This document shows, in pieces, positions 980 to 15,781 of a stretch of 16,518 nt of DNA. Within the stretch, counting starts at the first letter, position 1. Each line of letters opens with the position of its first letter. The DNA is taken from positions 1 to 16,518 of the forward strand of contig JAFGBW010000251.1 of NCBI GenBank assembly GCA_016932965.1, given 5' to 3'. This DNA comes from Candidatus Auribacterota bacterium. GTDB taxonomy: Bacteria; Auribacterota; JAFGBW01. The notes beneath the pieces were generated by a model that made no database searches, had not been told where the DNA came from, and saw nothing but the letters and a program-made list of their open reading frames with translations. A program made the position numbers and the translations under genes.

Positions 980-1633
980 ATGAAACATTTTTATGCTTTT
1001 TTCTGTTTATTTTGTTTATCTGTAACTCTTTTTGCTTTGGCGCCTTTATCAAACACCACAAAAAATCGAGTTCAAGCGGATAATTCAGATGAAATATCAA
1101 GAATAATATCTCAATTAGTCAATGAGGGGACAATATCCCTGAGGGCCAAAGGCGACAACGAAGAATTTATTTTTACTTATGAAAAAATTGACGAAAATAA
1201 GTATATCATCAGGGTTAAGAATAGGGAAAGGGTTATAGGATATTACGAAGTAGGTGACAGTCAGGGCATGAGATATTCTACATATCCTCCGATTGATAAT
1301 GACTATAAATCAGCATTAAATGTCGCGCGTGAAATGCGTTCAAAATATCACGGCATTGGAACGACAATCCTTTCCATGGCAATGCATATTGATAAATTGA
1401 TGTATCACGCTAAAGCGTATACCCTTATTGCAACGTATAAATCGTATCAATTTTATGAAAAATTGGGTTTTCGTACTTATTATGTAGAAAGAGAGGATGA
1501 TGGTCTCGGAAGGAGAGAAGCTCAAATGATTATTCTTTGGTACATGGCATTTGATTGGGTCAACCGTCCCATTCCAAAAATGGAAATATCTCAAATGACC
1601 TATCATAAGGATGAAATTGAAATGGCCGCATAA
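980..1633 (+). CDS. GNAT-fold acetyltransferase-like protein with signal-like N-terminus and LAPLS motif
   Basis: A 217-residue protein. Residues 1-19 form a hydrophobic, signal-peptide-like stretch ending TLFA, followed at once by LAPLS (20-24). The body resembles the GNAT N-acetyltransferase fold: KYHGIGTTILSMAM (122-135) matches the acetyl-CoA pyrophosphate loop, and SYQFYEKLGF (155-164) matches the last conserved GNAT motif. GNAT enzymes transfer an acyl group from acyl-CoA, a cytoplasmic cofactor, so a signal-like N-terminus is unexpected. It may have lost activity, sit at the inner face of the membrane, or use another donor. The C-terminus is EMAA. There is no clear Shine-Dalgarno sequence, and a TTGACA box lies 36 nt upstream. 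It is AT-rich compared with the 2085-5715 genes. The substrate is unknown. The fold call is fairly sure; catalysis is not. Confidence 0.8.
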   Translation: MKHFYAFFCLFCLSVTLFALAPLSNTTKNRVQADNSDEISRIISQLVNEGTISLRAKGDNEEFIFTYEKIDENKYIIRVKNRERVIGYYEVGDSQGMRYSTYPPIDNDYKSALNVAREMRSKYHGIGTTILSMAMHIDKLMYHAKAYTLIATYKSYQFYEKLGFRTYYVEREDDGLGRREAQMIILWYMAFDWVNRPIPKMEISQMTYHKDEIEMAA

Positions 1634-2044
1634 AGGGGAAGGAATACTTAGGATTGTTCATAGGCTGATTCGAGAAGAGCAGGACCAAGATTTTTATGAA
1701 CCCCAATCACAAAAAAATCATTCACTCGAAAATCCTATCGGGGTCATAAGCCTTCACCGGAAAATCATTTTGATACCTTTTACTTTTTCAAAAGAGATAA
1801 AATAGATCGGATCAAATAAAAACAGGAATTCGTGAGAGTGGCCTCATGACAAAATCAAAAAATGGAATATATTCAAACCGCGCAGAGTCTCGAAAAGGGG
1901 TGGGGCCTTGGAGACTCTTATTCATCCATCTGTTCCAGCTAAAAAACCTTGATAAATACCCCATGTTTATCCCAATAATAAATATTTTTCATAACCTAAA
2001 AGGGGACATTTCTATTTTGCGTTGACACCAAAAACCCACGCCCA
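1634..2044 (+). other. Intergenic stretch without a supported gene
   Basis: About 410 bases before the next promoter. It contains a large inverted repeat (1884-1918), a GGGGACATTTCTATTTTG stretch (2002-2019) that resembles repeat remnants often seen in such genomes, and a weak 59-codon ORF (1846-2025) that runs through the inverted repeat and is not accepted as a gene. Nothing else is recognisable. Confidence 0.4.
1884..1918 (+). terminator. Large stem-loop downstream of the GNAT-like gene
   Basis: AGAGTCTC (1884-1891) pairs perfectly with GAGACTCT (1911-1918). Inside, AAGG can pair with CCTT around a GGTGGGG loop. It lies about 250 nt after the stop at 1633 and is followed by TATTCATCC rather than a real T run. 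Termination is therefore only one option; it may be a repeat remnant. Confidence 0.35.
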
Positions 2045-2073
2045 TTGCCAATTCTTGTTTCATCGTGTATAAT
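2045..2073 (+). promoter_or_regulatory. Sigma70-type promoter abutting the 2085 gene
   Basis: TTGCCA (2045-2050), a 17-nt spacer and a perfect TATAAT (2068-2073). Transcription would start near 2080, leaving a leader of only about five bases before the ATG at 2085 and no room for a normal Shine-Dalgarno sequence. Confidence 0.62.
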
Positions 2074-2084
2074 GATATAGGCTT

Positions 2085-3164
2085 ATGAATAGGACCATGA
2101 AACTTTCTTTTTTATCTGCGATGATGATTCTTTTTTCAAATGGATCATTTTGTTTTGAGAATCAGGCAGACACATGTTCAACCTGTCTGGCGCCCCGGAC
2201 TTATAAAAATCAGCCTATTTCCGGTTCAACAACTGATTACGATAAGGTCACAGATGCCCAGGCGGACAGGATCATGGAAATACTCACCCGGCATGTCCAG
2301 AACCTTCCCCGACGAAAGGATTTCAGTTATTCAGTGAACATCAAGACACAAGTCAACGGGCTGAACATCCGGGCGGCGAGGATAACCGGAAAACGGGGTG
2401 TATTCATCAGGGTCGGCCGATTTTTCATCGTGGATGATGATGATTTTCCCCAGGATTTGCCGGACCCAGTCAGGAATTATCCGTTATTGATCCATTTAAG
2501 GGCTGTTCAGGACACGGTAAACGGCATTTTTTCCTCAGGGGGCTGGGGCGGATGGACCATTGCCGCGATTGCGGCCATGATAGTCTGTCAGGACGTATTG
2601 AAGGACTCTTTATTTGTGGATTTCGGGGCGGGAGACAGCGCGATTTTTTCCATTGTCGCAAAAAAATTGGGGGCAGGCCCTTTATTGATCATCGAAGAGA
2701 ATACAGAGGCGGTTCCCGTGTTGAAGGCGAACGCCTTGTCCAACGGGGTAATAATAGAAGATGACAGCATCATGAATAAAAAAATGTCAGCCATCACTCA
2801 ATCTGATGTGGCCGCTTTTTGTGATTTCCGCCGCATGGTCATCGCATCCAATATTCCCTACGGCGGGGCCCCGCTGAACAACGGGAATGCGGGAACAAAA
2901 AAAACAAGGGGAGATCTGGAACAAATTCTGGATGTTTTAGGAATTCCGGATTTATATATCGATACAGGCGGCCCTGCGGAAGATATAGGTGATGCCGAAG
3001 AAATACTCAACATGAGAAACGGCATCGTAACTCGTCTTGGTTTCATGCAGAAGGCGCTGTCCTGGATAGATCATCCCAGGGAGATAATCGCCTTGATCGC
3101 CCGTTTTCCGAATAGGCCGGAGCGTTACCAAAAACCCGGATCAGGCACGGAAAATTCTTCCTGA
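2085..3164 (+). CDS. Signal-bearing PrmA-like SAM methyltransferase homolog with LAPRT motif
   Basis: A 359-residue protein. Residues 5-24 form a hydrophobic signal-like segment, and CLAPRT lies at 34-39. The middle resembles ribosomal protein L11 methyltransferase (PrmA) and related class I SAM methyltransferases: DSLFVDFGAGDSAIFSIVAK (174-193) is motif I, an acidic pair EE (204-205) ends the next strand, and ASNIPYG (254-260) stands where N-[IL/P]-P-Y occurs. The substrate is unknown. A SAM enzyme behind an export-type N-terminus is odd because SAM is cytoplasmic. The start at 2085 is preferred because the promoter leaves a roughly 5-nt leader. ATG 2097 is the alternative, but AGGA lies only 2 nt before it. 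Base composition is near balanced, unlike the AT-rich neighbours. The C-terminus is ENSS. The next gene starts 168 nt later on the same strand. Confidence 0.82.
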   Translation: MNRTMKLSFLSAMMILFSNGSFCFENQADTCSTCLAPRTYKNQPISGSTTDYDKVTDAQADRIMEILTRHVQNLPRRKDFSYSVNIKTQVNGLNIRAARITGKRGVFIRVGRFFIVDDDDFPQDLPDPVRNYPLLIHLRAVQDTVNGIFSSGGWGGWTIAAIAAMIVCQDVLKDSLFVDFGAGDSAIFSIVAKKLGAGPLLIIEENTEAVPVLKANALSNGVIIEDDSIMNKKMSAITQSDVAAFCDFRRMVIASNIPYGGAPLNNGNAGTKKTRGDLEQILDVLGIPDLYIDTGGPAEDIGDAEEILNMRNGIVTRLGFMQKALSWIDHPREIIALIARFPNRPERYQKPGSGTENSS

Positions 3165-3332
3165 CCGGCAGTCAAGGAACACTTTTTATGCTGACTTGTC
3201 ATCAGGCACAAAACAGGATTCCAGATGAAAGGACGGTGCAGGCCCCCGGAGCCTGTCGGTACGGGTTGGTTTGGATGGAGACTGCTTCCATGCCGGAAAA
3301 AAGAATCCTTTGAATAAACAGGGAACGATCAT

Positions 3333-5069
3333 GTGATGATCCGTCTATCAAAAAATATAATTTATCTGGTTCAATTTCATGCATTTATTTTCATGATTTT
3401 TCATGCATGGGGTTTGGCTCCCGGCTCCATATCGAATCAAAAGCAGCTGCGATTGACTGACTATAGATTTCAGAGAAATTCCGCCGGTCATCGTTATCAG
3501 ACGGACATGCAATCCTGGGCGCCGCTGCAGATAAGCGGCTTTGTCAATGAACAGGGGCAATTGCGGCCGTTACAACCAATCGTCAGAGACGAAATCTCCC
3601 AGTTTTACTGCCGGGTGCTCAGAAGAAGAGGGGTTTCATGGAGACTCCCGCTGAATTCCGGAATTCCTGTCTTAAACGATGACCAGGGGAATAAGCTTTT
3701 ACCCCTGATGGGAAATATTCATTTAAATGGAAGCGTCGTGAGCAGGGAATTTCTGTCCGCGCATGATCTGGAATATATCGATGAAGATGACGAACCTTTT
3801 ATGATTGTTGTTTATTCCGGCTCTTACATGCAGAGGGTATTTTTCATGCCTCTCAAAATCAGCCTGTATGTTCAACGTTTTGAAAACGGAATCAGGATGG
3901 TTTATCCGGATGAGCTTGATCCTTTGATTGAGGCGAATCAGGAACAATTATCATCTGTTGGTCATCCTTTATTGACCGATGAACAAAAAATACAGGCCCT
4001 GCTGGAGATCGGTGTTTTACAGGAAATCCATGGTTCGGCATTACAGTTTAAAAACTCAGGCATGTATCCGTGGGGGCTTACCATTTATCCCGGGGAATCA
4101 TCCATTGACAGATACAGAACCATTCCATTCATCATTCGGCTGGCTGAACCCTATTTAAAGTATTCCCGGCAAGGCTATCCCTCACGTATTGCCTTGCAAT
4201 TAGCTTTCAATGAACTGGACCATGACCCTGCAATGAATCCGGATTATTTCACTTCCCGGTACAGGGGGGGGATTCATCTGGATGAGCCTTATGAACAAGC
4301 CGAGTCCATTATCGGTGCCGGTGCTTATTTTGAAAAAGCCATGATGAATGACAGGATTCTTTTAACCAACGGCGCAAGGCTTTCCACCCTGTCCCTGGAT
4401 TTCGAGGTTCTTTTTGAAAGAGCCGATATTGGGTCAATGCCTGTCGAAAAATCCGTATCCGGAATCAGGGTTCTGGTAGGCGATCCCAGGAGAATAGACG
4501 TTGTGACTCATGAGTACTGGTTCGGCGACCGACTGGAGACGGCGAAAAGATACAAAAGCGCCATTGCTGAACTGTACGGGAAAAGCGAAATCATTCAGGA
4601 GGACCTTGATGCTTACTTGCGGCATTTTTTTGAAAATTTAAGCATCAATCTCAGTGCGTTGCGCAGATGCGGTTTCATGGTGCCTGAAGAAAATTATTAT
4701 GACCAGAACATCGATTTACTGGGATTCATAACCGATACCGGTGACCTGCGTGAATACGAGGATATAAATGAATTCAGGATCACCATAATGAAATTTCTTG
4801 AAGTGGCATTCATCGTGCATGATCTGTGCGTTTCCGAACAACCCGGGGGGAGGGATGAAGCGGGTTTCACCAGATTCATCAACAGTCCGTACTTCAAGTT
4901 GTTCCTGACGAATTTTTTACCGTTGCCTGAAGGTGAAATTTCTGATGTTGTTCATTCGATACTTGGAAATCTGAGAACCGGGAGTTTTGCTGATGCCATG
5001 GATTCCATTGCGTCTGTCATGATTGAAAAAATGAAAAGAGGCAATCCGTCGGTGGAGGATGCCGCCTGA
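3333..5069 (+). CDS. Tagged protein of unknown function (LAPGS N-terminus, 578 residues)
   Basis: I do not recognise this protein. Residues 9-27 are a hydrophobic signal-like stretch ending HAWG, followed at once by LAPGS (28-32). Ala-Trp-Gly would be an acceptable signal peptidase I site, leaving LAPGS as the mature N-terminus. The remainder is a soluble, mixed alpha/beta-looking chain with no transmembrane segments or repeats. A C-terminal part with NLSINLSALRRCGFMVPEEN, then QNIDLLGFITDTG and a later HDLC, has scattered conserved-looking His, Asn and Asp residues, but I could not match it to a family. The C-terminus is EDAA. The start is GTG 3333 with AGGGA 8 nt upstream; ATG 3336 is equally possible and changes the protein by one residue. 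The DUF502 gene follows after 49 nt and may be co-transcribed. Confidence 0.85.
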   Translation: MMIRLSKNIIYLVQFHAFIFMIFHAWGLAPGSISNQKQLRLTDYRFQRNSAGHRYQTDMQSWAPLQISGFVNEQGQLRPLQPIVRDEISQFYCRVLRRRGVSWRLPLNSGIPVLNDDQGNKLLPLMGNIHLNGSVVSREFLSAHDLEYIDEDDEPFMIVVYSGSYMQRVFFMPLKISLYVQRFENGIRMVYPDELDPLIEANQEQLSSVGHPLLTDEQKIQALLEIGVLQEIHGSALQFKNSGMYPWGLTIYPGESSIDRYRTIPFIIRLAEPYLKYSRQGYPSRIALQLAFNELDHDPAMNPDYFTSRYRGGIHLDEPYEQAESIIGAGAYFEKAMMNDRILLTNGARLSTLSLDFEVLFERADIGSMPVEKSVSGIRVLVGDPRRIDVVTHEYWFGDRLETAKRYKSAIAELYGKSEIIQEDLDAYLRHFFENLSINLSALRRCGFMVPEENYYDQNIDLLGFITDTGDLREYEDINEFRITIMKFLEVAFIVHDLCVSEQPGGRDEAGFTRFINSPYFKLFLTNFLPLPEGEISDVVHSILGNLRTGSFADAMDSIASVMIEKMKRGNPSVEDAA

Positions 5070-5118
5070 GATTTCCGTGAAAAAGATTGGGAGACGAACA
5101 CCATGAGGAACAAATGAG

Positions 5119-5715
5119 ATGAAAAAAATATATAAGCATATTGTCAACAGCCTGATAGCAGGGGTCGTGGCGATACTGCCTCTGGGCGGCATGATCCTGA
5201 TGATCGGTTATCTCGAATCCACGATTTCGAATTCAGGGCTGTCCCGGCTGCCTTTTTATTTTCCCGGGTTGGGGCTTTTGGCGGCAGTTGTTTTTATTTA
5301 CCTGATCGGACTTTTGGTCACGACGTTTATCGGAAAGTGGATATGGAAGAAGGTGGATCAGATATTGGACATGCTGCCCCTGCTTGGCCGTATTTATCAG
5401 ACCTTAAAACAGATACTGGGCTACGGTGAAGGAAAGGATGCCATTTTCTATGAGGCCGTCTTGGTGCCCAGTAAAGATACCCGGGCGGAAGAGCTGGGTC
5501 TGGTAACCAACACCATCATGGATGCTGAAGGCAAAACAAAGTCTGTTGTGTTTATTCCCGGGGTCCCCAATCCGACTTCCGGCCGTCTCTTGATCATGGA
5601 TAAGGAATCCATGAAACCGTTGTCCATCAGTGTTAATGAAGCTTTAAAGGCGCTGGTTTCTATCGGGAAGACGGATATTGAACTGAAGTCCGGGGATGGG
5701 GGATCAGGAAATTAG
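5119..5715 (+). CDS. DUF502 family inner-membrane protein
   Basis: A 198-residue protein matching DUF502 in order of features. An N-terminal amphipathic start leads into a first membrane helix (about 10-32, GVVAILPLGGMILMIGY). Then come a short loop and a second helix (about 50-72, GLGLLAAVVFIYLIGLLVT), an IGKWIWKKVDQILDMLPLLG segment, IYQTLKQI, and the soluble domain with VVFIPGVPNPTSGRLLIMDK and ISVNEALKALVSIG. The FIPGVPNPTSG and S-x-G elements are the family hallmark. The cellular role of DUF502 proteins is not established. GAGGA (5105-5109) 9 nt before the ATG is a proper Shine-Dalgarno sequence, unlike the tagged genes. It ends in GSGN and carries no LAP-type motif. It probably shares a transcript with the 3333 gene, since the gap is 49 nt and no terminator is seen between them. 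Confidence 0.92.
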   Translation: MKKIYKHIVNSLIAGVVAILPLGGMILMIGYLESTISNSGLSRLPFYFPGLGLLAAVVFIYLIGLLVTTFIGKWIWKKVDQILDMLPLLGRIYQTLKQILGYGEGKDAIFYEAVLVPSKDTRAEELGLVTNTIMDAEGKTKSVVFIPGVPNPTSGRLLIMDKESMKPLSISVNEALKALVSIGKTDIELKSGDGGSGN

Positions 5716-5937
5716 GCGGGCAGGAAGGAAGCGGTTTCAACCGGCGCATCGGACCGGTTCACGACTCTGTGCGGTTTGAACGGATCCTGTACGGGATGTG
5801 AGAGGAAATAAACTCGGTTTATTAGTAAACTTTGGACACTTTCCAGAGCCTGGAGTATGAAAGAATGGTAGTATAAATTTCACGAAGTGAAAACTTTCGT
5901 GCTTTTTGTGGATTTCGTGGTTAAATAAAATAAAAAA
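5716..5937 (+). other. Intergenic region before the cassette array
   Basis: No gene is supported here. AACCGG (5739-5744) and CCGGTT (5754-5759) form a short inverted repeat after the DUF502 gene without a T run. A palindrome TTTCACGAAGTGAAA (5878-5892) overlaps a second inverted pair, CACGAA (5881-5886) with TTCGTG (5896-5901). TTTTTGTGG and TTTCGTGG follow, giving a run of degenerate TTCGTGG-like units up to 5920. Confidence 0.4.
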
Positions 5938-6008
5938 AGATAACAAATCATTCGAGTTGATCCTCATGCGGCTCCCGCGCATTCGGACAACTCAATTCTA
6001 TGTTGGAA
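5938..6008 (+). repeat. attC-like recombination site 1 (integron cassette type)
   Basis: Inverted-repeat architecture of an integron attC: outer AAC (5942-5944) and GTT (6002-6004). The inner arms are GAGTTG-a-TCC and GGA-CAACTC, which pair with one extrahelical A. Inside them, ATGCG pairs with CGCAT around a GCTCCCG loop. The flanking CATTC and CTCAATT match attC-like site 3 at comparable positions. The outer 7-mers are degenerate. The cassette ORF starts 14 nt after it. Confidence 0.62.
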
Positions 6009-6017
6009 ATAAAAAAT

Positions 6018-6632
6018 ATGAAAAAATATTTTTTAATCTTAATATTTATATCCACGGTAACAACATTTGTTTTTTCAAGCACATGTTTGTCTCCTAAAAC
6101 CAATAAATCAACATTTGATTTTATTTCTGTTTTGCTTAAACGTTATAATGATTCAGGTTTTCAAGTTTTTTTTGGGGATGAAATCGAAAATTCTGAATTT
6201 AGTGAATTAATAAAAAAAATAAATGCCACACGAAAGTGGGGAGAATATGATGAAGATGTTATTGCAAACAAATCAAGAACATTAGTTCTGTACAGAAATA
6301 ATGTCCCGGTTGCTTATATAAGCTATGTGGATAATGGTCACGTAGATCTTATTGCAACAGATAAAAATGCAAATATAAATTCCGGAGTATTGTATTTGAT
6401 CTTGGAATTAGTTGACCATTTTGGAAGTATTGGAATAACAAAATTGACTTTGCATTATAGAGAAGAAAATTTCAGATTAAAATCTTTGTATTTTAGATTA
6501 TTTAAATTTGTTAAATTATTATATGGCCCTGTACAGGTTGATATGTACCCGAATGGGGATAAAAAAATGAGAGCTGAACTTGATATTTCAGAACTTTATG
6601 CTATAAAAAAAATGTTATCTGTTAGCACCTAA
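6018..6632 (+). CDS. Cassette-borne GNAT-like protein with signal-like N-terminus and LSPKT motif
   Basis: A 204-residue AT-rich protein. From the ATG at 6018, residues 1-20 are a typical signal-like stretch (MKKYFLILIFISTVTTFVFS), and CLSPKT follows at 23-28. TLVLYRNNVPVAYISYVDNG, a GVLYLILELVDHF helix and a LTLHYREENFRLKSLYFRLF segment follow the strand-helix order of a GNAT acetyltransferase domain. The acetyl-CoA loop is degenerate, so activity is doubtful. ATG 6000 is in frame but lies inside the attC-like site and has no ribosome binding site. ATG 6018 has TTGGA about 10 nt upstream and starts the signal peptide cleanly. The stop is 4 nt before attC-like site 2. The C-terminus is SVST, the only tagged protein here not ending strictly in Ala/Ser pairs. 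Its low GC contrasts with the 2085-5715 genes, as expected for an acquired cassette. Confidence 0.75.
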   Translation: MKKYFLILIFISTVTTFVFSSTCLSPKTNKSTFDFISVLLKRYNDSGFQVFFGDEIENSEFSELIKKINATRKWGEYDEDVIANKSRTLVLYRNNVPVAYISYVDNGHVDLIATDKNANINSGVLYLILELVDHFGSIGITKLTLHYREENFRLKSLYFRLFKFVKLLYGPVQVDMYPNGDKKMRAELDISELYAIKKMLSVST

Positions 6633-6636
6633 AAAT

Positions 6637-6693
6637 TTCCAACCAAACACTCCAGCCGACCGCGTACCGCGGCGGCTGAGTTTAATGTTCTGC
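6637..6693 (+). repeat. attC-like recombination site 2
   Basis: A 57-bp site with TTCCAAC (6637-6643) and GTTCTGC (6687-6693) as outer cores. Arms CTCCAGCCG (6650-6658) and CGGCTG-AG (6673-6680) pair with one extrahelical base. The central hairpin is CCGCG (6660-6664) with CGCGG (6668-6672). Arm sequence, length and bulge match integron attC sites closely. The outer cores are only partly complementary beyond AAC/GTT. Confidence 0.72.
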
Positions 6694-6710
6694 GCTAGAA
6701 TAATGTGTAA

Positions 6711-6732
6711 CAGGTAGACTTTTAGTCACCTG
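6711..6732 (+). promoter_or_regulatory. Stem-loop in the leader of the RAM-domain gene
   Basis: CAGGT (6711-6715) pairs with ACCTG (6728-6732), and GACT (6717-6720) pairs with AGTC (6724-6727), with a bulged A and a TTT loop. It lies between attC-like site 2 and the Shine-Dalgarno sequence of the next gene. It could modulate or protect the transcript; no T run follows, so it is not a classical terminator. Confidence 0.4.
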
Positions 6733-6748
6733 CTAGAAAGGAAAAATT

Positions 6749-7024
6749 ATGACGACAGCTATTGTATTAATGAAGGTAGCAAGAAAAGAAATAAACAACG
6801 TTGCAGAGGAATTGGCTGAGTTGAAAAGCATTTCTGAAGTATATTCTGTAAGTGGGAAATATGATTTAGTCGCAATAATTCGCGTGAAAAATAATGATGA
6901 CCTTTCGGTATTCGTCACAAAAGAACTTGCTGTAATAAATTCGATTATTGAAACAGAGACTATGCTTGCTTTTAAAGCATATTCAAGACATGACTTAGAG
7001 GCAATGTTCGACATCGGTAATTAA
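6749..7024 (+). CDS. Stand-alone Lrp/AsnC ligand-binding (RAM) domain protein
   Basis: A 91-residue protein that is essentially the RAM/AsnC_trans_reg domain alone. It has an opening strand MTTAIVLMKVA, a helix with AEELAELKSISEVYSVSGKY, the hallmark GKYDLVAIIRV, a helix DDLSVFVTKELAVINSI, and a closing strand ETETMLAFKAYS. The helix-turn-helix DNA-binding domain of Lrp/AsnC regulators is absent, so direct regulation of a promoter is unlikely. Stand-alone RAM proteins form oligomers that bind amino acids and can pair with full-length regulators. AAGGA (6738-6742) lies 6 nt before the ATG. No signal or LAP motif is present and it ends in DIGN. It sits between attC-like site 2 and the 3' core at 7175, so it is probably the payload of one cassette. 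Confidence 0.88.
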   Translation: MTTAIVLMKVARKEINNVAEELAELKSISEVYSVSGKYDLVAIIRVKNNDDLSVFVTKELAVINSIIETETMLAFKAYSRHDLEAMFDIGN

Positions 7025-7051
7025 GAACGTTTTTTTCCGATGACCTGGCGC

Positions 7052-7183: not shown

Positions 7184-7205
7184 AAAAAAGTACAGGAATA
7201 AAATT

Positions 7206-8043: not shown

Positions 8044-8044
8044 T

Positions 8045-8632
8045 ATGTTTATTAAAAAATCGTTATTAATAATTTTGTGTTTAACAATACTCGGCCCGTG
8101 CTTTGCCTTATCACCCCGATCAGATGTTGATTCAATTCCCGAATCCGAAGCATTAAGTAAAATATTCGAATATAATTGGAAAACTATCCAAAGTGTGGCC
8201 TTATTGATAAAGAATCTTTATGATATGCCTGATAATTATGTTTATGTTAAGGATGAATATCGTGAAAAATACAGGACTATGATCAATGAATTCGAAACAA
8301 CCATCAAAGAAAATTATTATCGTCTACATAGACATGATTCATCAATATATAGAGTTATTACCGGGGAAGATATGTTTATAAATACTGATGAACAGCTAGA
8401 AATTATTTCGGATTGTGTTGATTTATTTGAAAAATTTATTTTACAAATGAGAGAAGATGACTTCAAAAGAGAATATCAACAGAGATTTGTAACTTTTAAA
8501 TCAATTGCTGAAGAATCAAGGCAACAATATAATAATTTGAAAAAAGCAGTATATTTTTGGATTGATACATTTAAAGATACTCCTAAAAGAATTGAATTTG
8601 ATAGAAAATACGCAACGCAACAATCATCATAG
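8045..8632 (+). CDS. Tagged, mostly helical protein of unknown function (LSPRS N-terminus)
   Basis: A 195-residue protein that I do not recognise. Residues 3-21 are a hydrophobic signal-like stretch ending CFA, a good signal peptidase I site, and LSPRS (22-26) follows directly. The rest appears to be all-helical and charged, for example EKYRTMINEFETTIKENYYR, a LEIISDCVDLFEKFI helix and EESRQQYNNLKKAV, suggesting a helical bundle or partner-binding protein. The C-terminus is QQSS. The ATG is one base after attC-like site 3 and has no Shine-Dalgarno sequence of its own, so expression may depend on read-through from the methyltransferase. No attC follows it, so it may be the last cassette or the edge of the chromosome. 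It converges with the large minus-strand gene, with a hairpin between them. Confidence 0.75.
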   Translation: MFIKKSLLIILCLTILGPCFALSPRSDVDSIPESEALSKIFEYNWKTIQSVALLIKNLYDMPDNYVYVKDEYREKYRTMINEFETTIKENYYRLHRHDSSIYRVITGEDMFINTDEQLEIISDCVDLFEKFILQMREDDFKREYQQRFVTFKSIAEESRQQYNNLKKAVYFWIDTFKDTPKRIEFDRKYATQQSS

Positions 8633-8711: not shown

Positions 8712-11057
8712 TCAGGCTGAAGTAGCCGTCTGTGCTGGGGGGGTGAAATTGACCGGAGATTCCAAAGGAATATTCAAACCCTGAATCAGGGTTTGAACCT
8801 GCAGGATAAAATCCTTCAGCTGGTCAGGCTTCATTTTTGTTAATATAACCTTGCCATCGCGTTTATCTTTATCCAGCTGTCTATCTATCAGATCTTTTAA
8901 AAGATTCAGTCTACATCTTTCATTCATGAAAACTTCCGCCTGGGGATTGAGTCTTGCTGCCCGGGAACGGGAAAGAACATCCAGATAGGTGTCGATTGTT
9001 TCATTGAGACGATTCATTAAAACGATCAGATCGTCTATATGGTCCTCAAGATCTTTATAAGAACGCCTGATTTCTCTCAACGCCTTTTTCTTCTTTTTCT
9101 CTTCCGGCCCTGAATCTGGATAGGCTGCCAGCGACTGCAGAAGAGTATTCGCAATGGGCCCCATTTTTTTCTTTATTTCTTCAACTTTCCGGATTTGTTG
9201 ATCGATGTCAAAGGAGGCTTCCGGAGTACTTTTCAGTTTCTCTAAATTAGCTGAAGCTTCGCTGAAGGGATCTGATACATCGCTTGAAGAAATCTTGGGG
9301 AGAAATGCCCTGCCGTCGTAAGTATAAAAAATCCTTTTATGCCCCTCTGTGATGACTTCTACAGCCATGACACCCAATCCATTGGATCTTTGAGCAAGGG
9401 CTAAAATCTCCTCGAGATCCACATTTTTATTTCCGTTACTGTTTATGGGAATCCTTATCCCTGAATTGTCATTGGTGAGATAATATTGACCGTTCGTTTT
9501 GTCCATGACCAGCCGCACGGTCTGGTTCCCGCCCCTGATACGGCTGAGACCTTGTACAAGGGTGCTGTTGGAAGCTGAGTTTGCCGCTGCGACTTCCTGG
9601 TCAGTCGCGCGATCGTATACCAGGGAATCAATTCGCTTTGATCTTCTGTACGTCATTCCGGAATTGACGAACGAGCCCATTTGTATTTCTATTCCTGCCA
9701 TGAATGTTAAAGCATCCGTTCTATCCTTTAAATTAAGGGTTACATTTCCAAATATACTGGGTAAAAAAGACCTGGAAGAAGTCAACGATAAATCGAAAGA
9801 CACCTGATTCAGGGGATCTGTAAACGGATCCGCTGAACTTCTGTACAAATAGCCGGCTTTAACGTTTATAAATCTCCAGCTTAAATCCATTTCCGGGTTC
9901 ACGGTAACGGTTGACAGGGGGCCGAATAAAGCCCTGACTGTCAGCTGGGGATGGATCTTACCGACATATTCATATTCGCCAATGACACCGACTCCCTGAA
10001 AACTGTTATTGATCAGCGAGGCATTAAAAGCGAGGGAAAATTGATTGGGTCCCAGCTGAGTCACGGCATCTGCGCCGAAATCCCATGTGGCTATATCGAT
10101 GTTGGGTAATTTTGCATAGTTCATGGTGACACGCGGCCTGGCAATCAATAGTCCATCCTCCCTGAAGTTCAGAACAAACGGATACCCTACATTGCCGCTT
10201 AAATTGAAAAGGGAAGAGCCTTCCATTTCTATACTTTCTTCAGACTTCCTGTCTGGATCTATTTCAGAAATCGGCTCTGTTTGACTGGGGGAATGATTAT
10301 GTGTTCTGAAATAGCCCCCGTTAATGCTCAATTTGTAAAATGGATTTTCAGCCTCGGCTGTTCCTCCCGTGTAGCCCTGATGGACATTGTAAAGGCCTTG
10401 CGTTTCATAAGACTTTGCTGCCAAATAGAGTGAAGAAGGTTTAAAATACCTCAGGACTCTTTTTTCCATGCTCCGGTCCGTGCCGTTTGGATTTAAAAGG
10501 ATCAATCTTCCTCCGAGTCCCATCCAGACATTAAATGAAGGATCCCCCCTCGTCTCACTGTTTTCTAATTTTACATTAAGTTCCACATCATCAAAAAATA
10601 ATTTGGGTCTTGATGTGTCAGTATCATCCGTGGCAGTAGAAACAGCATCTTTCGGGCTGGTATCCCTTGTCTGCGCACGGGCATCAGAGTTCCATGTCAG
10701 AACCATCAGGAAAAGAGCCGGAATAATTCCAAAGTATAAGTAGAACAATGTTCTTATATCAAATACTCTTCTTGCGGATGGATTATCCGGACTGAAAAAC
10801 TCCATTACAGATGATACAACTTCCGCTGAAGAAATGGTTCTTTCCCCAGGGGGATTTTTTGGTTTATGTCTTTCAAAAATAGAATTCGGTGCAAGAACGG
10901 TTATGGAATTATTTTCAAGCCGGATAGTTGTCGTTTTTAATAGGGTTTTAAATTCTGCAGATGCTGAAGAAGCACTTTTTAAAACAGGCATATCAAGGAT
11001 AAACACCTGATGAAAAAAAATAATTAACGCCAATATAAATTGAAGTTTTGATTTCAT
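8712..11057 (-). CDS. Large predicted outer-membrane beta-barrel/coiled-coil protein with LAPNS motif in a long N-terminal region
   Basis: A 781-residue protein that I do not recognise by name. Residues 5-22 are a first hydrophobic segment, and VLAPNS is at 54-59. A second hydrophobic segment at 101-120 ends in DARA|QT (125-130), a good signal peptidase I site. Residues 155-475 show alternating polar/hydrophobic strands with Gly and aromatic ends (FNVWMGLGGRLILL, LYLAAKSYETQGLY, LSGNVGYPFVLNF, FINVKAGYLYRSS), typical of a transmembrane beta-barrel. A Ser/Asn-rich linker follows. Residues 600-760 are charged helices (IRKVEEIKKKMG, EEKKKKKALREIRRSYKDLE) probably forming a coiled coil. The C-terminus is TATSA, not the aromatic ending of a canonical BamA-dependent barrel, which makes the barrel call tentative. 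A promoter on this strand (11073-11101) leaves a leader of about 8 nt with only a weak GAGAG. Confidence 0.82.
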   Translation of the reverse strand: MKSKLQFILALIIFFHQVFILDMPVLKSASSASAEFKTLLKTTTIRLENNSITVLAPNSIFERHKPKNPPGERTISSAEVVSSVMEFFSPDNPSARRVFDIRTLFYLYFGIIPALFLMVLTWNSDARAQTRDTSPKDAVSTATDDTDTSRPKLFFDDVELNVKLENSETRGDPSFNVWMGLGGRLILLNPNGTDRSMEKRVLRYFKPSSLYLAAKSYETQGLYNVHQGYTGGTAEAENPFYKLSINGGYFRTHNHSPSQTEPISEIDPDRKSEESIEMEGSSLFNLSGNVGYPFVLNFREDGLLIARPRVTMNYAKLPNIDIATWDFGADAVTQLGPNQFSLAFNASLINNSFQGVGVIGEYEYVGKIHPQLTVRALFGPLSTVTVNPEMDLSWRFINVKAGYLYRSSADPFTDPLNQVSFDLSLTSSRSFLPSIFGNVTLNLKDRTDALTFMAGIEIQMGSFVNSGMTYRRSKRIDSLVYDRATDQEVAAANSASNSTLVQGLSRIRGGNQTVRLVMDKTNGQYYLTNDNSGIRIPINSNGNKNVDLEEILALAQRSNGLGVMAVEVITEGHKRIFYTYDGRAFLPKISSSDVSDPFSEASANLEKLKSTPEASFDIDQQIRKVEEIKKKMGPIANTLLQSLAAYPDSGPEEKKKKKALREIRRSYKDLEDHIDDLIVLMNRLNETIDTYLDVLSRSRAARLNPQAEVFMNERCRLNLLKDLIDRQLDKDKRDGKVILTKMKPDQLKDFILQVQTLIQGLNIPLESPVNFTPPAQTATSA

Positions 11058-11072
11058 GTGACTCTCAGTTAT

Positions 11073-11101
11073 ATTATATCCTATATTTGAATTTTTTGCA
11101 A
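11073..11101 (-). promoter_or_regulatory. Sigma70-type promoter of the 781-residue protein gene
   Basis: Read on the minus strand: TTGCAA (11101-11096), a 17-nt spacer, and a perfect TATAAT (11078-11073). The ATG is at 11057, so transcription should start about 8-9 nt before the start codon, leaving a very short leader. Confidence 0.65.
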
Positions 11102-11151
11102 GATTCTTACAGTGATTTCTTAGAGTGTAAATATTACGAACGAATCGAGTT

Positions 11152-11188
11152 GGCGGATTGGGGACGTTTATGCGGCGTTCCCCCCGCC
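11152..11188 (+). other. Two-part stem-loop upstream of the 11261 gene
   Basis: GGCGG (11152-11156) pairs with CCGCC (11184-11188), and GGGGACG (11160-11166) pairs with CGTTCCCC (11176-11183) with one bulged T. The loop is TTTATGCGG. The GGGGACG arm resembles GGGGAC units elsewhere in the window (2002, 8639). This may be a small palindromic repeat remnant or a structure between the divergent genes. Confidence 0.4.
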
Positions 11189-11225
11189 CAGCAGGGGAAG
11201 CGATTTTTGGAAAAAAACCTGACTC

Positions 11226-11253
11226 TTGATTTTTTTATAAAAATATATTAAAT
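11226..11253 (+). promoter_or_regulatory. Candidate promoter abutting the 11261 gene
   Basis: TTGATT (11226-11231), a 16-nt spacer and TTAAAT (11248-11253), 7 nt before the ATG. The -10 is weak (4 of 6), but the position matches the same arrangement at 12471 and 14395. Confidence 0.35.
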
Positions 11254-11260
11254 CATTATC

Positions 11261-11575
11261 ATGATTATAAAAAGGTTAATATCTCAAATACTGGTTCTAT
11301 TCATGATTCATAACAATATGAGTTATGCAGAAAACATTTTCTGTCTGTCACCAAGCACCATGGTTAATGATGAAACGATTATCGATGATGCAGTATTGAA
11401 CGAATGGCAGGATTCGCCTCTTCGTTCCGAGGGTATGTATTATCGCCTGGGACCAGACCGTCAGGCATGGAGTGTTGCAACTGCAATCTATGCATTCAGA
11501 TGGTTTGATCAGATGAGACATAATAAATTAAAAGGTCTTGAGATGACAGAAACTCCAAATAATACAGCAGCATAA
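11261..11575 (+). CDS. Short tagged protein of unknown function (LSPST N-terminus)
   Basis: A 104-residue protein that I do not recognise. Residues 5-22 are a hydrophobic signal-like segment (KRLISQILVLFMIHNNMSYA), and CLSPST lies at 28-33. If cleaved before Leu29, the mature chain would be about 76 residues, acidic at its start (NDETIIDDAVLNEWQDSPLR) with a YRLGPDRQAWSVATAIYAFRW segment that could be one amphipathic helix. The C-terminus is NTAA. There is no Shine-Dalgarno sequence, and a TTGATT box lies 35 nt before the ATG. Its short length suggests either a small exported factor or the kept front end of a longer family. A hairpin followed by seven Ts about 110 nt downstream should terminate it. 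Confidence 0.7.
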   Translation: MIIKRLISQILVLFMIHNNMSYAENIFCLSPSTMVNDETIIDDAVLNEWQDSPLRSEGMYYRLGPDRQAWSVATAIYAFRWFDQMRHNKLKGLEMTETPNNTAA

Positions 11576-11890
11576 TCCGGGTCGCTATTAATTCCAAGAA
11601 AATTTCGATGACAGTATTCATAATTATTGATAATTCGTGCAAAAGCTCGCGGGCCATGATATGACTGGCATGCCGGCGGAGTTTAAAGGAAGGAATCTTC
11701 CCCTTTTTTTCGACAGGATTTCATGCAATGCTCATCCCCTAAAGGGTGAAGCTAATGTTATCTTTAAGGAAAAATGATGAAGATTAAAGGTATTTATCCT
11801 ATACGAATATTCAGACAATATTAGAAAAATAATAATTCAAAATAGATAAATTTATAATATAGTAACAATGAAATGAAATTAAGAGTAGTT
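11576..11890 (+). other. Intergenic region upstream of the RRM gene
   Basis: No gene is supported. It holds a terminator-like hairpin (11685-11710), a palindrome GGCATGCC (11668-11675) and a CCCTAAAGGG hairpin followed by AATGTTATCTT (near 11738-11763). The last element copies the 3' end of attC-like site 3 but has no recognisable left half. The rest is AT-rich. Confidence 0.4.
11685..11710 (+). terminator. Terminator-like hairpin plus T run (copy 2 of the AAAGGAAGG repeat)
   Basis: AAAGGAAG (11685-11692) pairs imperfectly with CTTCCCCTTT, and the strand runs into seven Ts ending at 11710. It has the form of an intrinsic terminator for the 11261 gene and shares AAAGGAAGGAATC with the hairpin at 8668. 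Confidence 0.55.
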
Positions 11891-11891
11891 T

Positions 11892-11920
11892 CTGTCAGTC
11901 CTCAATTCCTATGCTATGAT
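11892..11920 (+). promoter_or_regulatory. Candidate promoter of the RRM gene
   Basis: CTGTCA (11892-11897), a 17-nt spacer and TATGAT (11915-11920). Transcription from about 11927 would give a leader of about 39 nt that includes the Shine-Dalgarno sequence. Unlike the promoters of tagged genes, this one leaves a normal leader. Confidence 0.42.
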
Positions 11921-11965
11921 TGAGTATTGAAAATAAAAAAAATAGCATAAGAAGAGGTGAAAAAT

Positions 11966-12283
11966 ATGAAACTTTATGTGGGAAACATTTCGTACAACAC
12001 AGACGAAAACATGTTGAGTGAACTGTTCAGTCAATCCGGTCAGGTGAAAGAAGTCAAGGTAATAACTGACAGAGATACCGGAAGGTCAAAAGGATTTGCT
12101 TTTGTTGAAATGGAAAACAAGGAAGCCGGAGAAAAGGCAATCAATGATCTGAACGGTAAGGAAATCGACGGCAGAGCAATTAAAGTCAATGAAGCAAGAC
12201 CCCAGGAGAAAAGAAGTTTTGGTGGAGGCGGCATGGGCCCAAGAAGGGGAGGGAGAGGAGACAGGCACGGCGGAAGGTTCTAA
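11966..12283 (+). CDS. RRM-domain RNA-binding protein with Gly/Arg-rich tail
   Basis: A 105-residue single-RRM protein like the bacterial RNA-binding proteins related to cyanobacterial Rbp and plant glycine-rich proteins. RNP2 LYVGNI is at 3-8, and RNP1 KGFAFVEM (42-49) carries the two aromatic residues that stack on RNA. The domain ends near KVNEARPQ (about residue 79), and a tail rich in Gly and Arg (from about 83, GGGGMGPRRGGRGDRHGGRF) adds non-specific RNA affinity. It acts in the cytoplasm, probably as an RNA chaperone, often cold-induced in relatives. I chose ATG 11966, with GAGG 8 nt upstream, over the in-frame GTG at 11957, which overlaps the Shine-Dalgarno sequence. A strong stem-loop follows. 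It has no signal or LAP motif and ends in GGRF. Confidence 0.95.
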   Translation: MKLYVGNISYNTDENMLSELFSQSGQVKEVKVITDRDTGRSKGFAFVEMENKEAGEKAINDLNGKEIDGRAIKVNEARPQEKRSFGGGGMGPRRGGRGDRHGGRF

Positions 12284-12345
12284 ACGGACCTGCTATTAAG
12301 ATAAGAAAAAACAAGTTTCTTTAATTTTAGGAAAACAAACACATC

Positions 12346-12381
12346 GAGCCCTTCCGGGCGCACCAGCGCCCGGAAGGGCTC
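12346..12381 (+). terminator. Strong stem-loop terminator after the RRM gene
   Basis: A perfect 15-bp stem, GAGCCCTTCCGGGCG (12346-12360) with CGCCCGGAAGGGCTC (12367-12381), around CACCAG. Beyond a bulged C, ACAT (12341-12344) pairs with ATGT (12382-12385). The tract after it is ATGTTTATGTT, so T-richness is modest, but the stem is the strongest in the window. Confidence 0.72.
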
Positions 12382-12470
12382 ATGTTTATGTTATCCGAAT
12401 AAAGAAAAGCAGCCGCGTACCGGAGCGAAGCGGAGATGTTGGGATGCATGATTTAAACCGGTTCATGCTA

Positions 12471-12499
12471 TTGATTCGAAGGTCAAGATCAGATATATA
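12471..12499 (+). promoter_or_regulatory. Promoter placing the start site on the amidohydrolase ATG
   Basis: TTGATT (12471-12476), a 17-nt spacer and TATATA (12494-12499). The ATG at 12506 is seven bases after the last -10 base, where transcription normally begins, so the mRNA would be leaderless. Confidence 0.55.
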
Positions 12500-12505
12500 A
12501 CCAGC

Positions 12506-13885
12506 ATGAAAAAATTTCGTTCATTTATTATATTGATTTGTTTCTATTCAAGCCTGGCTTACTCAGTAAATACCCCGTATGACTTTTCTAATTCTTTTCT
12601 TGCTCCAGGCACCTTTATCAACCAGAATCGATTGATGATACAGGGATTACATATCGGCAGAATGCCGGTCGTTTGTGATAAAAGCAGGCTTAAAGACGGA
12701 AAGATCATTATTATTTATAATCCTGAAGGCGCTAAAGACTTTCCGGGTTTGAATCGGGTCATTACCAATTCATTGAACGTGATGATCGCCTATGCTTTCA
12801 ACGGCGACTGGAATAAAAAAGTCGAAACGCCCATGCTGCTAACCTCTTTTCAGGGAATGTATGTGCTGGAACTGGAGGTCAGGCCTGGACAATATATGAT
12901 CGAGTTCAGCTTTACCTCACCGGAAGGAGGATATGATCCGGTATGCGAGATGTACGGCCAGCCTGCGAATTACCGTGAATGGCTGTTTACGGATTCGCAG
13001 GGTTCTCCGGTGATCATCACTGACAGTCATTGTCATCTGAGCATCGGCCTTGATGTTCAAGGGATGCCGCGGGGGGCTCAACATTATCTCCTGCCGGCTT
13101 TATTGTCCGGCGGCATGGAAAGAGCGATGATCGTCTGCCGTGATGCAGATTGGTTATGTGATATGCTGGGGCAGTTTCCTCAGCTGCGTGCCATGCCCTG
13201 GGTTCATCCCCGCGACGGTGATGTGCAGCAGACCATAGATTGTATCACTGAAAATCCCGGTATTGTCGGTATGAAATTTCATCCATGCTGGGACAAGTCT
13301 CCGATCAACAGCCCGGAATATGCCAGATATCTGGATGCTTTATCCCTGCTTTGTCACACTCAGGGAATCCGTTACAATGTTTTAACCCATTCCGGCAACC
13401 ATGACGAGCCCGGTTATGTTGATCCGGATCAGGTCAGGGAGGTGGCTGGAAAATATCCCGGGATCAATTTTATTCTTGGCCATGTTTATCTGGGTGATGA
13501 TTGGGGCAAGCAGCGGGAGATGGCCTTCATTGCCAGGGATTATCCCAATGTTTACCTGGAGACATCCTGGCTCAACCCCTGGGAGAGAGTTTTAGAAGTC
13601 ATCAAAATAGCCGGGGCCGGAAAAGTTTTATTCGGTTCGGATACCCAGGGCCTCGAGCATTACCGCCAGGACTACGATCATTACTGCAGGCAGGTAAAAT
13701 ATCTTGCCGGTGTCATCGAAGGCGTACCGCAAAATATGCGTTTATCTCAGGATGATTTCGCCCTGGTCATGTGCCAAAATGCCAGACGCTTATTCGGATT
13801 TACAGGAGACAGCTTTGTTGTCTATCATGCTCCCATAGAGAGAGTTGATGATTCAGGAAGCGATCCGGCCGGCTGTTCGGCATGA
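12506..13885 (+). CDS. Tagged amidohydrolase-family metal hydrolase with carbohydrate-binding-like N-domain
   Basis: A 459-residue protein. Residues 3-20 are signal-like and FLAPGT is at 31-36. Residues 62-165 resemble a starch-binding-type beta-sandwich: KIIIIYNPEG, NVMIAYAFNGDWN, MYVLELEVRPGQYMIEFSFT, then NYREWLF. I think of CBM25-like domains, as inference. Residues 170-450 match the amidohydrolase-2 TIM barrel: DSHCHL gives the His-x-His pair (175, 177), GMKFHP has Lys257 and His259, LTHSG has His295, ILGHVY has His326, and FGSDTQ has Asp379. Together these form a divalent-metal hydrolase or decarboxylase site. The substrate is unknown, and a sugar- or lactone-like one would suit the N-domain. 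There is no Shine-Dalgarno sequence; the promoter at 12471 would give a leaderless message. The C-terminus is GCSA. All catalytic residues appear present, so it is probably active. Confidence 0.88.
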   Translation: MKKFRSFIILICFYSSLAYSVNTPYDFSNSFLAPGTFINQNRLMIQGLHIGRMPVVCDKSRLKDGKIIIIYNPEGAKDFPGLNRVITNSLNVMIAYAFNGDWNKKVETPMLLTSFQGMYVLELEVRPGQYMIEFSFTSPEGGYDPVCEMYGQPANYREWLFTDSQGSPVIITDSHCHLSIGLDVQGMPRGAQHYLLPALLSGGMERAMIVCRDADWLCDMLGQFPQLRAMPWVHPRDGDVQQTIDCITENPGIVGMKFHPCWDKSPINSPEYARYLDALSLLCHTQGIRYNVLTHSGNHDEPGYVDPDQVREVAGKYPGINFILGHVYLGDDWGKQREMAFIARDYPNVYLETSWLNPWERVLEVIKIAGAGKVLFGSDTQGLEHYRQDYDHYCRQVKYLAGVIEGVPQNMRLSQDDFALVMCQNARRLFGFTGDSFVVYHAPIERVDDSGSDPAGCSA

Positions 13886-13923
13886 CTTGATCCGGGGTCA
13901 GTATATTAGATCATTTAAAATCA

Positions 13924-13945
13924 AAAGGAAGGAACCCCTTCCTTT
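13924..13945 (+). terminator. Perfect hairpin after the amidohydrolase gene (copy 3 of the AAAGGAAGG repeat)
   Basis: AAAGGAAGG (13924-13932) pairs over nine bases with CCTTCCTTT (13937-13945) around AACC. It lies 39 nt after the stop at 13885. GCTTTCGCC follows, so T-richness is weak. A second GC-rich pair, GGAAGGGG with CCCCTTC, lies just beyond. Confidence 0.5.
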
Positions 13946-14145
13946 GCTTTCGCCGGAAGGGGGACCACGCAGCGGGGTTTGAGGCAGCCTTACGGCCCCT
14001 TCTTGTGAAGGGAATGCTGGAAATAATAATGGATTTGTAAATGGATGCCATAAAACCTTATTATTAATATGTCTTTTTTCAATTTCTTGTTTTTCTTAAC
14101 AATTAAAACTATCCGAAAAATTTTCTGTCGGCTTAATCACTTCTG

Positions 14146-14316
14146 ATGCCAGTTAAGAAAAAATATATCGAGTGTTATTTTCGAAGTAATCAGAAAACGA
14201 GATATGAATTTTATAGAATTGAAGATCAATTTACATATCTATCTGTCTGGAATAACAATGAATATAACTCAAGCCATAAAGGTTTTAACTATATCCCCCT
14301 TGAAAAATCCTGTTGA
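14146..14316 (+). CDS. Small 56-residue protein of unknown function
   Basis: The short frame MPVKKKYIECYFRSNQKTRY continues with EFYRIEDQFTYLSVW, a polar stretch and SSHKGFNYIPLEKSC. The composition is protein-like, rich in aromatic residues and Lys/Arg, with alternating strands suggesting a small beta-rich fold. A stop codon lies in frame 12 nt upstream. I see no Shine-Dalgarno sequence and no promoter I trust. It is the only plausible gene between the amidohydrolase and the 14429 gene and is strongly AT-rich. It lacks a signal or LAP motif. It could be a real small gene or a remnant. Confidence 0.42.
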   Translation: MPVKKKYIECYFRSNQKTRYEFYRIEDQFTYLSVWNNNEYNSSHKGFNYIPLEKSC

Positions 14317-14394
14317 TCCTGTAAATTCTGTCTAAAAATATCTCCCCGTCCTCTTCTCAACTCAACATTCACAAGTCTTTTAACTTTAGGCTCC

Positions 14395-14422
14395 TTGATA
14401 AAACCGGATTGTATGGTATAAT
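14395..14422 (+). promoter_or_regulatory. Promoter placing the start site on the ATG of the 450-residue gene
   Basis: TTGATA (14395-14400), a 16-nt spacer and a perfect TATAAT (14417-14422). The ATG at 14429 is seven bases after the -10 box, so the message would begin at or next to the start codon and be leaderless. Confidence 0.65.
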
Positions 14423-14428
14423 GATGCT

Positions 14429-15781
14429 ATGCAGATAAATAGCATCATGATTCATTTGAAACAGATTTCCCTTTGCCTCCCGGCGATATTCTTTTTCATG
14501 CTTTTGACGAACGTTCCGGCTTTGGCCATGCCGGAGGCCCTTGCCCCTCAGACAATCGCCGACACGGTCAATACGCCTGAGGGGAGAATTTATTCCCTGC
14601 TCAGAAAGGAGCACCCGGAGCTCTTTTACAGACTGGATGACGGGCGCATCAGAACAGCGGTTTCTAAAATGGCTCATTTTCTAGTTCGACGCGGGTTTCA
14701 GGATGGTTTAATAAAAAAACTGGTGACCCTTAATGGTATCCTTCTTATCGAATACATGGGTGACAATCAGGTTTTTTTTCATATGAACAAACGGATAAGC
14801 CGGACAGTACGGCCCCTTTCTTTTAGCTCCACGGACAGCGAACTTGTTCATGTTAGTTTCAGGCTTGCGAGCGGAAAGGATTTATACAGGAAATATTACG
14901 GTGAGGCTGAACTCGATAAATTAACGGCTGTCATCAACAGACGCTCCGCCATGCAGTTTGCCATCGGGAATGTTCACGGCATCAACGCGGGTTTTCTCTA
15001 CCTCAGTGAGGGATTGGTATTCCCTTTGATCGCTGAAATATTGTTGAGGTCAGATGAATGCGGAATCAGCTATGCCGGCAGAAACATGATCTGGTATGCC
15101 ATGGCTTATTTTCAGTATCATGCCAATTCGCCTTTAACAGGGCTTGAGATTCTGGTTTCGATGTTCGAAAACCTCCAGAACGGGGGAACAATAGGCCCTC
15201 ACTCTGACAGAAGGGATCTGAATGCCTTCAGAAACCATCCCGATGCCATGGAAGGGATTTTTACAACGCATCTGGCTTTTCAGTATCACTCGGATAGAAT
15301 AAGAAAATTACATGGGGATCTCAGTCCTTCCCCGGATATTCAGGATCTTACCCGCTTGTACGGGCCGATGGGCGCTTTTTCTGTCAGAGAGATGGCTGAC
15401 AGGCTGCGTCGAACAGGTATGACCGGCACTTACTGGATGAGGAATATAGTCAGACCGTATCAGGAGCATTTGTCGATGATGCCAAATAACAGCCATTACA
15501 CAATTGAACAGGACCTGACTTATCAGATTACCTGTCCCCGTGAATTCGCTAATGACATGGTATTGAAGCAGCTTTTATTTGCCGTGTTCTATCAGAGCGA
15601 CAATAAAAAAAGAGCTGATCCTGATATTCAAAACATTGCCGGTCATGTGGCGGATATTCTGGGATATCATCCTGAAAATTCCGGATCTGTCCCCTCCAGT
15701 CCCGCCCCTTTTGTCAGTGCACCTAAAACGCAACACCCGCGCAGTTCCTGGCGTGATTTGTGGGGATTACGGTCAGCCTGA
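14429..15781 (+). CDS. Tagged protein of unknown function (LAPQT N-terminus, 450 residues)
   Basis: I do not recognise this protein. Residues 10-33 are a hydrophobic signal-like segment with a classical Ala-Leu-Ala site at 31-33. Four residues later LAPQT lies at 38-42 (PEALAPQT). The rest is soluble-looking and partly helical, with a stretch NRRSAMQFAIGNVHGINAGF and a SEGLVFPLIAEILLRSDECG segment that may form a hydrophobic core. The tail is Pro/Ser-rich (VPSSPAPFVSAPKTQHPRSS) and looks unstructured. The C-terminus is LRSA. The start at 14429 is favoured because the promoter puts transcription initiation there; ATG 14447 in the same frame also lacks a ribosome binding site. No close neighbour suggests an operon. 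Confidence 0.82.
   Translation: MQINSIMIHLKQISLCLPAIFFFMLLTNVPALAMPEALAPQTIADTVNTPEGRIYSLLRKEHPELFYRLDDGRIRTAVSKMAHFLVRRGFQDGLIKKLVTLNGILLIEYMGDNQVFFHMNKRISRTVRPLSFSSTDSELVHVSFRLASGKDLYRKYYGEAELDKLTAVINRRSAMQFAIGNVHGINAGFLYLSEGLVFPLIAEILLRSDECGISYAGRNMIWYAMAYFQYHANSPLTGLEILVSMFENLQNGGTIGPHSDRRDLNAFRNHPDAMEGIFTTHLAFQYHSDRIRKLHGDLSPSPDIQDLTRLYGPMGAFSVREMADRLRRTGMTGTYWMRNIVRPYQEHLSMMPNNSHYTIEQDLTYQITCPREFANDMVLKQLLFAVFYQSDNKKRADPDIQNIAGHVADILGYHPENSGSVPSSPAPFVSAPKTQHPRSSWRDLWGLRSA

Follow-up and report, generated by a model that had tools for sequence, protein, structure and literature searches.

A putative bipartite protein-sorting signal at the two ends of unrelated proteins in a Candidatus Auribacterota genome

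INTRODUCTION

Few protein-sorting signals are known, and a number of them have led to a machine, as with sortase, exosortase, the type IX secretion system (T9SS), and the Plasmodium translocon of exported proteins (PTEX). In Bacteroidetes, the lipoprotein export signal, like the lipobox, lies near the mature N terminus and directs the next envelope step. In Plasmodium, the Plasmodium export element/host-targeting (PEXEL/HT) motif RxLxE/Q/D, a pentamer found shortly after the signal sequence and cleaved by plasmepsin V, marks unrelated proteins for export (PMC10900883). Plastid precursors of heterokonts and cryptophytes carry a bipartite leader in which the ASAFAP motif, an aromatic residue or Leu followed by Ala-Pro, accompanies a second translocation (PMC2567999). 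At the opposite end of proteins, the tail-specific protease (Prc/Tsp) reads small or apolar free C termini (PMC7481392). Here, we analyze the entire contig C37 (16,518 bp; hereafter, the window) of a Candidatus Auribacterota metagenome-assembled genome (MAG; 3.14 Mb in 300 contigs, 92.6% assembly completeness), where nine open reading frames (ORFs) had been predicted to share a hydrophobic leader followed by the pentamer L-[A/S]-P-x-[S/T] (the tag). The C-terminal half of the signature was overlooked in that prediction: the tag goes together with a C terminus of the form [S/A]-[A/S]-COOH.

RESULTS

The tag follows hydrophobic N termini far above chance

All nine predicted motifs are present at the residues claimed, and the residue preceding Leu is Ala, Gly, or Cys in seven of them, as had been noted. 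For a chance test, another 80 stretches of this genome were chosen in two rounds by contig number, irrespective of content; the first round covered 630 kb including the window, and the second added 180 kb (810 kb in total). Within the first 630 kb, 195 ORFs had a hydrophobic N terminus, which was followed by L[AS]P.[STN] in 26 cases. Composition shuffles of these segments yielded a mean of 1.2 motifs and a maximum of 7 in 1000, the expectation from protein bodies was 0.75, and ORFs without a hydrophobic N terminus had the motif in 3 of 290 cases. When the window was left out, 17 of 184 leader ORFs carried the motif. Following hydrophobic N termini, LAP showed the strongest enrichment among 4437 tripeptides (p 4e-13, window included). 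The enrichment over shuffled and non-leader sets excludes chance as the source of the tag.

The whole genome was analyzed with the DNA pattern ATGARR-N{72,102}-LAP.[ST], i.e., a start codon, a basic or similar second residue, and then L-A-P-x-[S/T]. It gave 36 matches versus 4 for the reversed control, and its density per Mb, as read from the table, was the highest among 384 genomes; two same-order genomes had 7 and 3 matches. The L-S-P variant was dropped from the DNA patterns because its counts were swamped by background. Some matches of the protein regular expression were false, including a BtuF-like protein ('SLAPATTEI'), an ATP-synthase-c-like protein, a membrane protein, and a match whose motif lies 40 residues downstream.

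A set of 36 tagged proteins was picked by hand from the 810 kb, so that counts made on it serve as description only; the tests proper are the motif enrichment, a C-terminal rule fixed beforehand and applied to new contigs, and the association between tag and tail outside the window. Leu and Pro are found in 36 of 36 by selection of the set. The middle position is Ala, Ser, or Gly (24, 11, and 1 proteins), and position 5 is Ser or Thr in 32. Leu is preceded by Cys (7), Thr (7), Ala (5), Phe (5), or Ser (4). The gap between the end of the hydrophobic core and Leu ranges from 1 to 40 residues with a median of 12.5, indicating that the tag usually lies within the mature N-terminal region rather than on the cut. 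With such a gap, and with Thr and Phe as common as Cys and Ala before Leu, a signal-peptidase cut that would make Leu-[A/S]-Pro the new N terminus is unsupported as a rule.

The tag is coupled to a C-terminal dipeptide

The C-terminal dipeptides of the nine window proteins are all drawn from Ala, Ser, and Thr (AA, SS, AA, ST, SS, SA, AA, SA, SA). In the first sample, such ends closed 15 of 22 ORFs tagged according to the regular expression versus 21 of 449 others, and several of the tagged proteins without the dipeptide are explained by the false matches described above (BtuF-like, ATP-synthase-c-like, membrane protein). The rule was then fixed and applied to new contigs, where it held (3 of 5 versus 11 of 127, p 0.0085). 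The reverse analysis, with the window excluded, revealed L[ASG]P within the first 85 residues in 14 of 16 complete leader ORFs ending in [AS][AS], versus 20 of 242 leader ORFs without this end (p 3e-12). One exception is an ATPase of cytosolic type that lacks a true leader. The second is a debranching-enzyme homologue adjoining two tagged ones, in which DHLATIS replaces the tag. Among the curated tails, Ser or Ala occupies position -2 in 25 of 30 and position -1 in 25 of 30, Ser-Ala being the commonest pair.

The tag is encoded with five different Leu codons, each of the four Pro codons, and nine codons at the A/S/G position, and the codons of the C-terminal Ser and Ala are likewise varied. 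The many synonymous codons at both ends indicate that selection acts on the protein and not on the DNA. An origin at the DNA level, from repeats or cassette ends, was rejected, as the codons differ and the sequences past the stop codons look unrelated. Extrapolation from the 27 tagged proteins found in 794 kb outside the window leads us to expect roughly 100 in the whole genome.

Tagged proteins have unrelated, cytosolic-type bodies

The bodies are unrelated, as the original prediction had it. They comprise GNAT, methyltransferase, and amidohydrolase proteins as well as orphans and are soluble and of cytosolic type. Pfam matches in the window were obtained for the ORFs starting at 980 (GNAT), 2085 (a weak PrmA-like methyltransferase match), and 12506 (amidohydrolase). 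Outside the window, the tag occurs on a radical SAM protein, an isochorismatase whose Cys region is kept, a uridine kinase-like protein with CYTH and an intact Walker A motif, a P-loop protein, a protein with a weak NDK-like match, a metallo-beta-lactamase fold, and two glycogen debranching enzymes, one of them fused to 4-alpha-glucanotransferase (1,960 residues). Two tagged giants exceed 2,700 residues; both contain AAA_5 and one also WD40 repeats (L005:8166-16508 and L013:1171-9768, both cut by contig ends). Many further tagged proteins are orphans.

No Pfam domain shared among the tagged proteins was found, and paralogy in the first sample was limited to one short match. A further transmembrane (TM) segment is absent from 34 of 36 tagged bodies, compared with its presence in 51 of 159 other leader proteins. 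Debranching-enzyme (GDE) homologues readable in other genomes start without a leader, whereas those found here carry one. For the amidohydrolase, no related locus was found in named genomes, and for two orphans, none in viral contigs. AlphaFold models of two tagged proteins, made without alignments, had predicted local distance difference test (pLDDT) values of 42 and 37 and were not usable.

Three leader-bearing relatives of glycogen debranching enzymes lie in a row at L125:4463-14318 (G000:C165). The tagged protein with the metallo-beta-lactamase fold (L052:1042-3231) shares 82% identity over its C-terminal 79 residues with the start of the ORF at L023:8068-8757. Contig ends cut both ORFs, and the two contigs may lie next to each other or have arisen by recent duplication.

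Distribution and candidate machinery

No tagged class was found in stretches sampled from two genomes of the same order and five of the same phylum or in named Auribacterota loci. Six genomes in which the pattern count was raised (G335, G188, G014, G205, G145, and G186) had no tagged ORF in the stretches sampled, and no description of the tag, or of sorting in Auribacterota or Omnitrophota, was found in the open-access literature. The tetranucleotide profiles of tagged contigs correlate with r values of 0.71-0.79, untagged contigs spanning 0.72-0.77 between the 5th and 75th percentiles, and one tagged gene shares its contig with a gene 77% identical to that of a same-order genome.

The genome encodes an exosortase (PF09721; G000:C157:2474-3232, E 1.8e-55), several secretins, and one FHIPEP protein, of flagellar or type III secretion system (T3SS) origin. 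Signal peptidase I (S26, PF10502) gave no match at E 0.001 in the MAG, although most relatives have one; the missing match may reflect an assembly gap or a divergent enzyme. An expansion of S41 or S26 peptidases that might read the tag was not seen.

Features of the window

The coordinates of both ends of the tagged proteins are collected in Table 1. The protein encoded at 8712-11057 carries, downstream of its tag, a second segment resembling a signal peptide, hydrophobic at residue 101 and ending in DARA/Q, with the cleavage site judged by eye. Past this segment follow a long repetitive, possibly barrel-like region and a coiled coil. A tenth ORF (15921-16517) is predicted to be tagged, its N terminus lying beyond the assembly. 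Other genes of the window include an AhpC/peroxiredoxin-like frame that runs off the contig start (3-455, minus strand) and a small, untagged RRM RNA-binding protein amid the tagged genes (11957-12283, plus strand).

Table 1 Coordinates of N-terminal tags, C-terminal dipeptides, and the internal segment in the window (a slash marks the putative cut)
Feature	ORF	Position	Strand	Residues or remark
Tag LAPLS	980-1633, GNAT-like	1037..1051	+	20-24
C-terminal Ala-Ala	980-1633	1625..1630	+	
Tag LAPRT	2085-3164, PrmA-like methyltransferase	2187..2201	+	35-39
C-terminal Ser-Ser	2085-3164	3156..3161	+	
Tag LAPGS	3333-5069, orphan	3414..3428	+	28-32
C-terminal Ala-Ala	3333-5069	5061..5066	+	
Tag LSPKT	6018-6632	6087..6101	+	24-28, counted from the start at 6018
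C-terminal Ser-Thr	6018-6632	6624..6629	+	
Tag LSPRS	8045-8632	8108..8122	+	22-26
C-terminal Ser-Ser	8045-8632	8624..8629	+	
Tag LAPNS	8712-11057	10881..10895	-	55-59
Second internal signal-peptide-like segment	8712-11057	10674..10772	-	~96-128, downstream of tag; ...ALFLMVLTWNSDARA/Q
C-terminal Ser-Ala	8712-11057	8715..8720	-	
Tag LSPST	11261-11575	11345..11359	+	29-33
C-terminal Ala-Ala	11261-11575	11567..11572	+	
Tag LAPGT	12506-13885, amidohydrolase-2	12599..12613	+	32-36
C-terminal Ser-Ala	12506-13885	13877..13882	+	
Tag LAPQT	14429-15781, orphan	14540..14554	+	38-42
C-terminal Ser-Ala	14429-15781	15773..15778	+	
C-terminal Ala-Ala	15921-16517, tenth ORF	15924..15929	-	5' end cut by contig end

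DISCUSSION

The original prediction is partly supported. A sorting or processing signal common to unrelated bodies is borne out by a signature that is specific to leader proteins, selected at the protein level, coupled to a C-terminal dipeptide, and unseen in sampled relatives; a cut before Leu as a rule is not supported. We put at roughly 0.55 the probability that L-[A/S]-P-x-[S/T] and the C-terminal [S/A]-[A/S] together form a bipartite protein-sorting signal. Judging from the form of the sequence, the hydrophobic, Sec-like leader would deliver the protein to the inner membrane or take it across. The observed pattern, a tag 1-40 residues past the core and a free C-terminal dipeptide that is mostly Ser-Ala, would then be read as one class mark. 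Machinery that recognizes the tag and the tail, possibly cutting at the former and holding the latter in a PDZ-like pocket, might give all tagged proteins a common destination.

That destination is likely not the ordinary periplasm, because the cargo consists of enzymes that elsewhere are cytosolic and use ATP, S-adenosylmethionine, acetyl-CoA, or polyglucan. The cargo is an argument against that final site and no proof of a different one. We tentatively consider the cytoplasm of another cell, host or prey, or an internal compartment, at less than even odds. Somewhat more doubtful is the full proposal of a two-ended address label by which undescribed machinery would move roughly 100 soluble, cytosol-type proteins, including giants, to a compartment with a cytosol of its own, which might be a different cell or the interior of an organelle-like structure. 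The protein encoded at 8712-11057 would then be cargo re-exported there via its second signal peptide.

Several observations weigh against a bipartite sorting signal. The tag is known from a single MAG, and hydropathy, not a signal-peptide predictor, was used to judge the leaders. Neither a reader nor a protease or translocon for the tag was identified in the genome, and VipB of the type VI secretion system (T6SS) and a VirB4-type ATPase of the type IV secretion system (T4SS) had no match there. The S41 tail proteases are not expanded, with one strong and one weak match, as in relatives in whose samples the tag was not seen. Biosynthetic and pilus genes are present, so that a parasitic life is not indicated.

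The ends might instead serve proteolytic maturation or turnover, a signal peptidase removing the leader, the tag being a second cleavage site, and a PDZ-type Prc/CtpB-like protease reading the tail for periplasmic trimming or degradation. The canonical S41 peptidase of the genome would suit this role, but such peptidases are no more numerous than in relatives where the tag is unseen, a degradation tail on about 100 catalytically plausible enzymes makes little sense, and the N-terminal tag is left unexplained. We regard this explanation as unlikely. Equally improbable, in our judgment, is membrane anchoring without export, in which uncleaved leaders would keep the enzymes near cytosolic cofactors and the ends would assemble a membrane enzyme array. 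The cofactor needs of the cargo and the bodies devoid of a further TM segment are consistent with anchoring. However, the leaders resemble ordinary signal peptides by eye, with Lys or Arg before the core and often an A-x-A-like end, the positive-inside rule would place the body outward, and an anchor alone needs neither a conserved L-[A/S]-P nor a conserved C terminus.

Less probable still is delivery to another cell by a known type II (T2SS), T3SS, T4SS, or T6SS machine with the tag being incidental. The several secretins and the FHIPEP protein speak for it, but the T6SS and T4SS markers were not found, as stated above, and relatives have many secretins, yet the tag is unseen in their samples. 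To our knowledge, the T3SS handles its substrates without Sec leaders, and we know of no linear tag on T2SS substrates. An artefact is very improbable: foreign contigs binned into the MAG, e.g., from an alga with similar-looking heterokont ASAFAP leaders, in which Leu rarely replaces Phe (PMC2567999), were rejected because the tagged contigs share the tetranucleotide profile and GC content of the rest, their genes are of compact, bacterial type, and an Auribacterota gene lies beside a tagged one; chance is excluded by the enrichment test.

A strongly supported signature linking both ends of some 100 unrelated proteins suggests that Auribacterota, a poorly known phylum, have a sorting step not yet described. 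It offers a sequence handle for finding the machine, in that it tells which proteins and which residues to follow, and it bears on the use of exported giant and enzyme-like proteins by bacteria of the Planctomycetes-Verrucomicrobia-Chlamydiae (PVC) group.

The signature fits none of the targeting signals considered. The leaders may have the form of those on type I signal-peptidase substrates (n-region, hydrophobic core, and A-x-A end), as judged by eye; PF10502 has no match in this MAG (92.6% complete). The LPXTG, PEP-CTERM/exosortase, and T9SS C-terminal domain systems, whose many exported substrates are unrelated, likewise rely on one short or small tag. LPXTG and PEP-CTERM, however, need a C-terminal TM helix and a basic tail, whereas 34 of 36 proteins here have no TM segment after the tag, and the [S/A]-[A/S] tails do not fit the exosortase even though its gene is present. 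The T9SS signal is a folded, shared C-terminal domain (a beta-sandwich), and none was seen by Pfam here. A lipobox has a lipidated Cys at +1, whereas no Cys is invariant here, Cys preceding Leu in 7 of 36 proteins. The curated tails would fit the small or apolar C termini read by Prc/Tsp; that protease is not known to be linked to an N-terminal tag.

In its functioning, the signature may best be likened to PEXEL or ASAFAP leaders, although it has the defining residues and positions of neither. With ASAFAP it shares a leader followed by an aromatic/Leu-Ala-Pro-like motif; the differences are that Phe (rarely Trp, Tyr, or Leu) stands at +1 of the cut there, whereas here Leu is found throughout (by selection of the set) at a variable distance, in a bacterium, and with a C-terminal half. 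PEXEL provides the working analogy, i.e., a pentamer soon after an N-terminal signal sequence that makes many unrelated proteins one class. It differs in being read by a eukaryotic endoplasmic reticulum protease and in its consensus, R-x-L-x-[E/Q/D] in place of L-[AS]-P-x-[ST], and we know of no C-terminal partner signal for PEXEL comparable to the [S/A]-[A/S] dipeptide described here.
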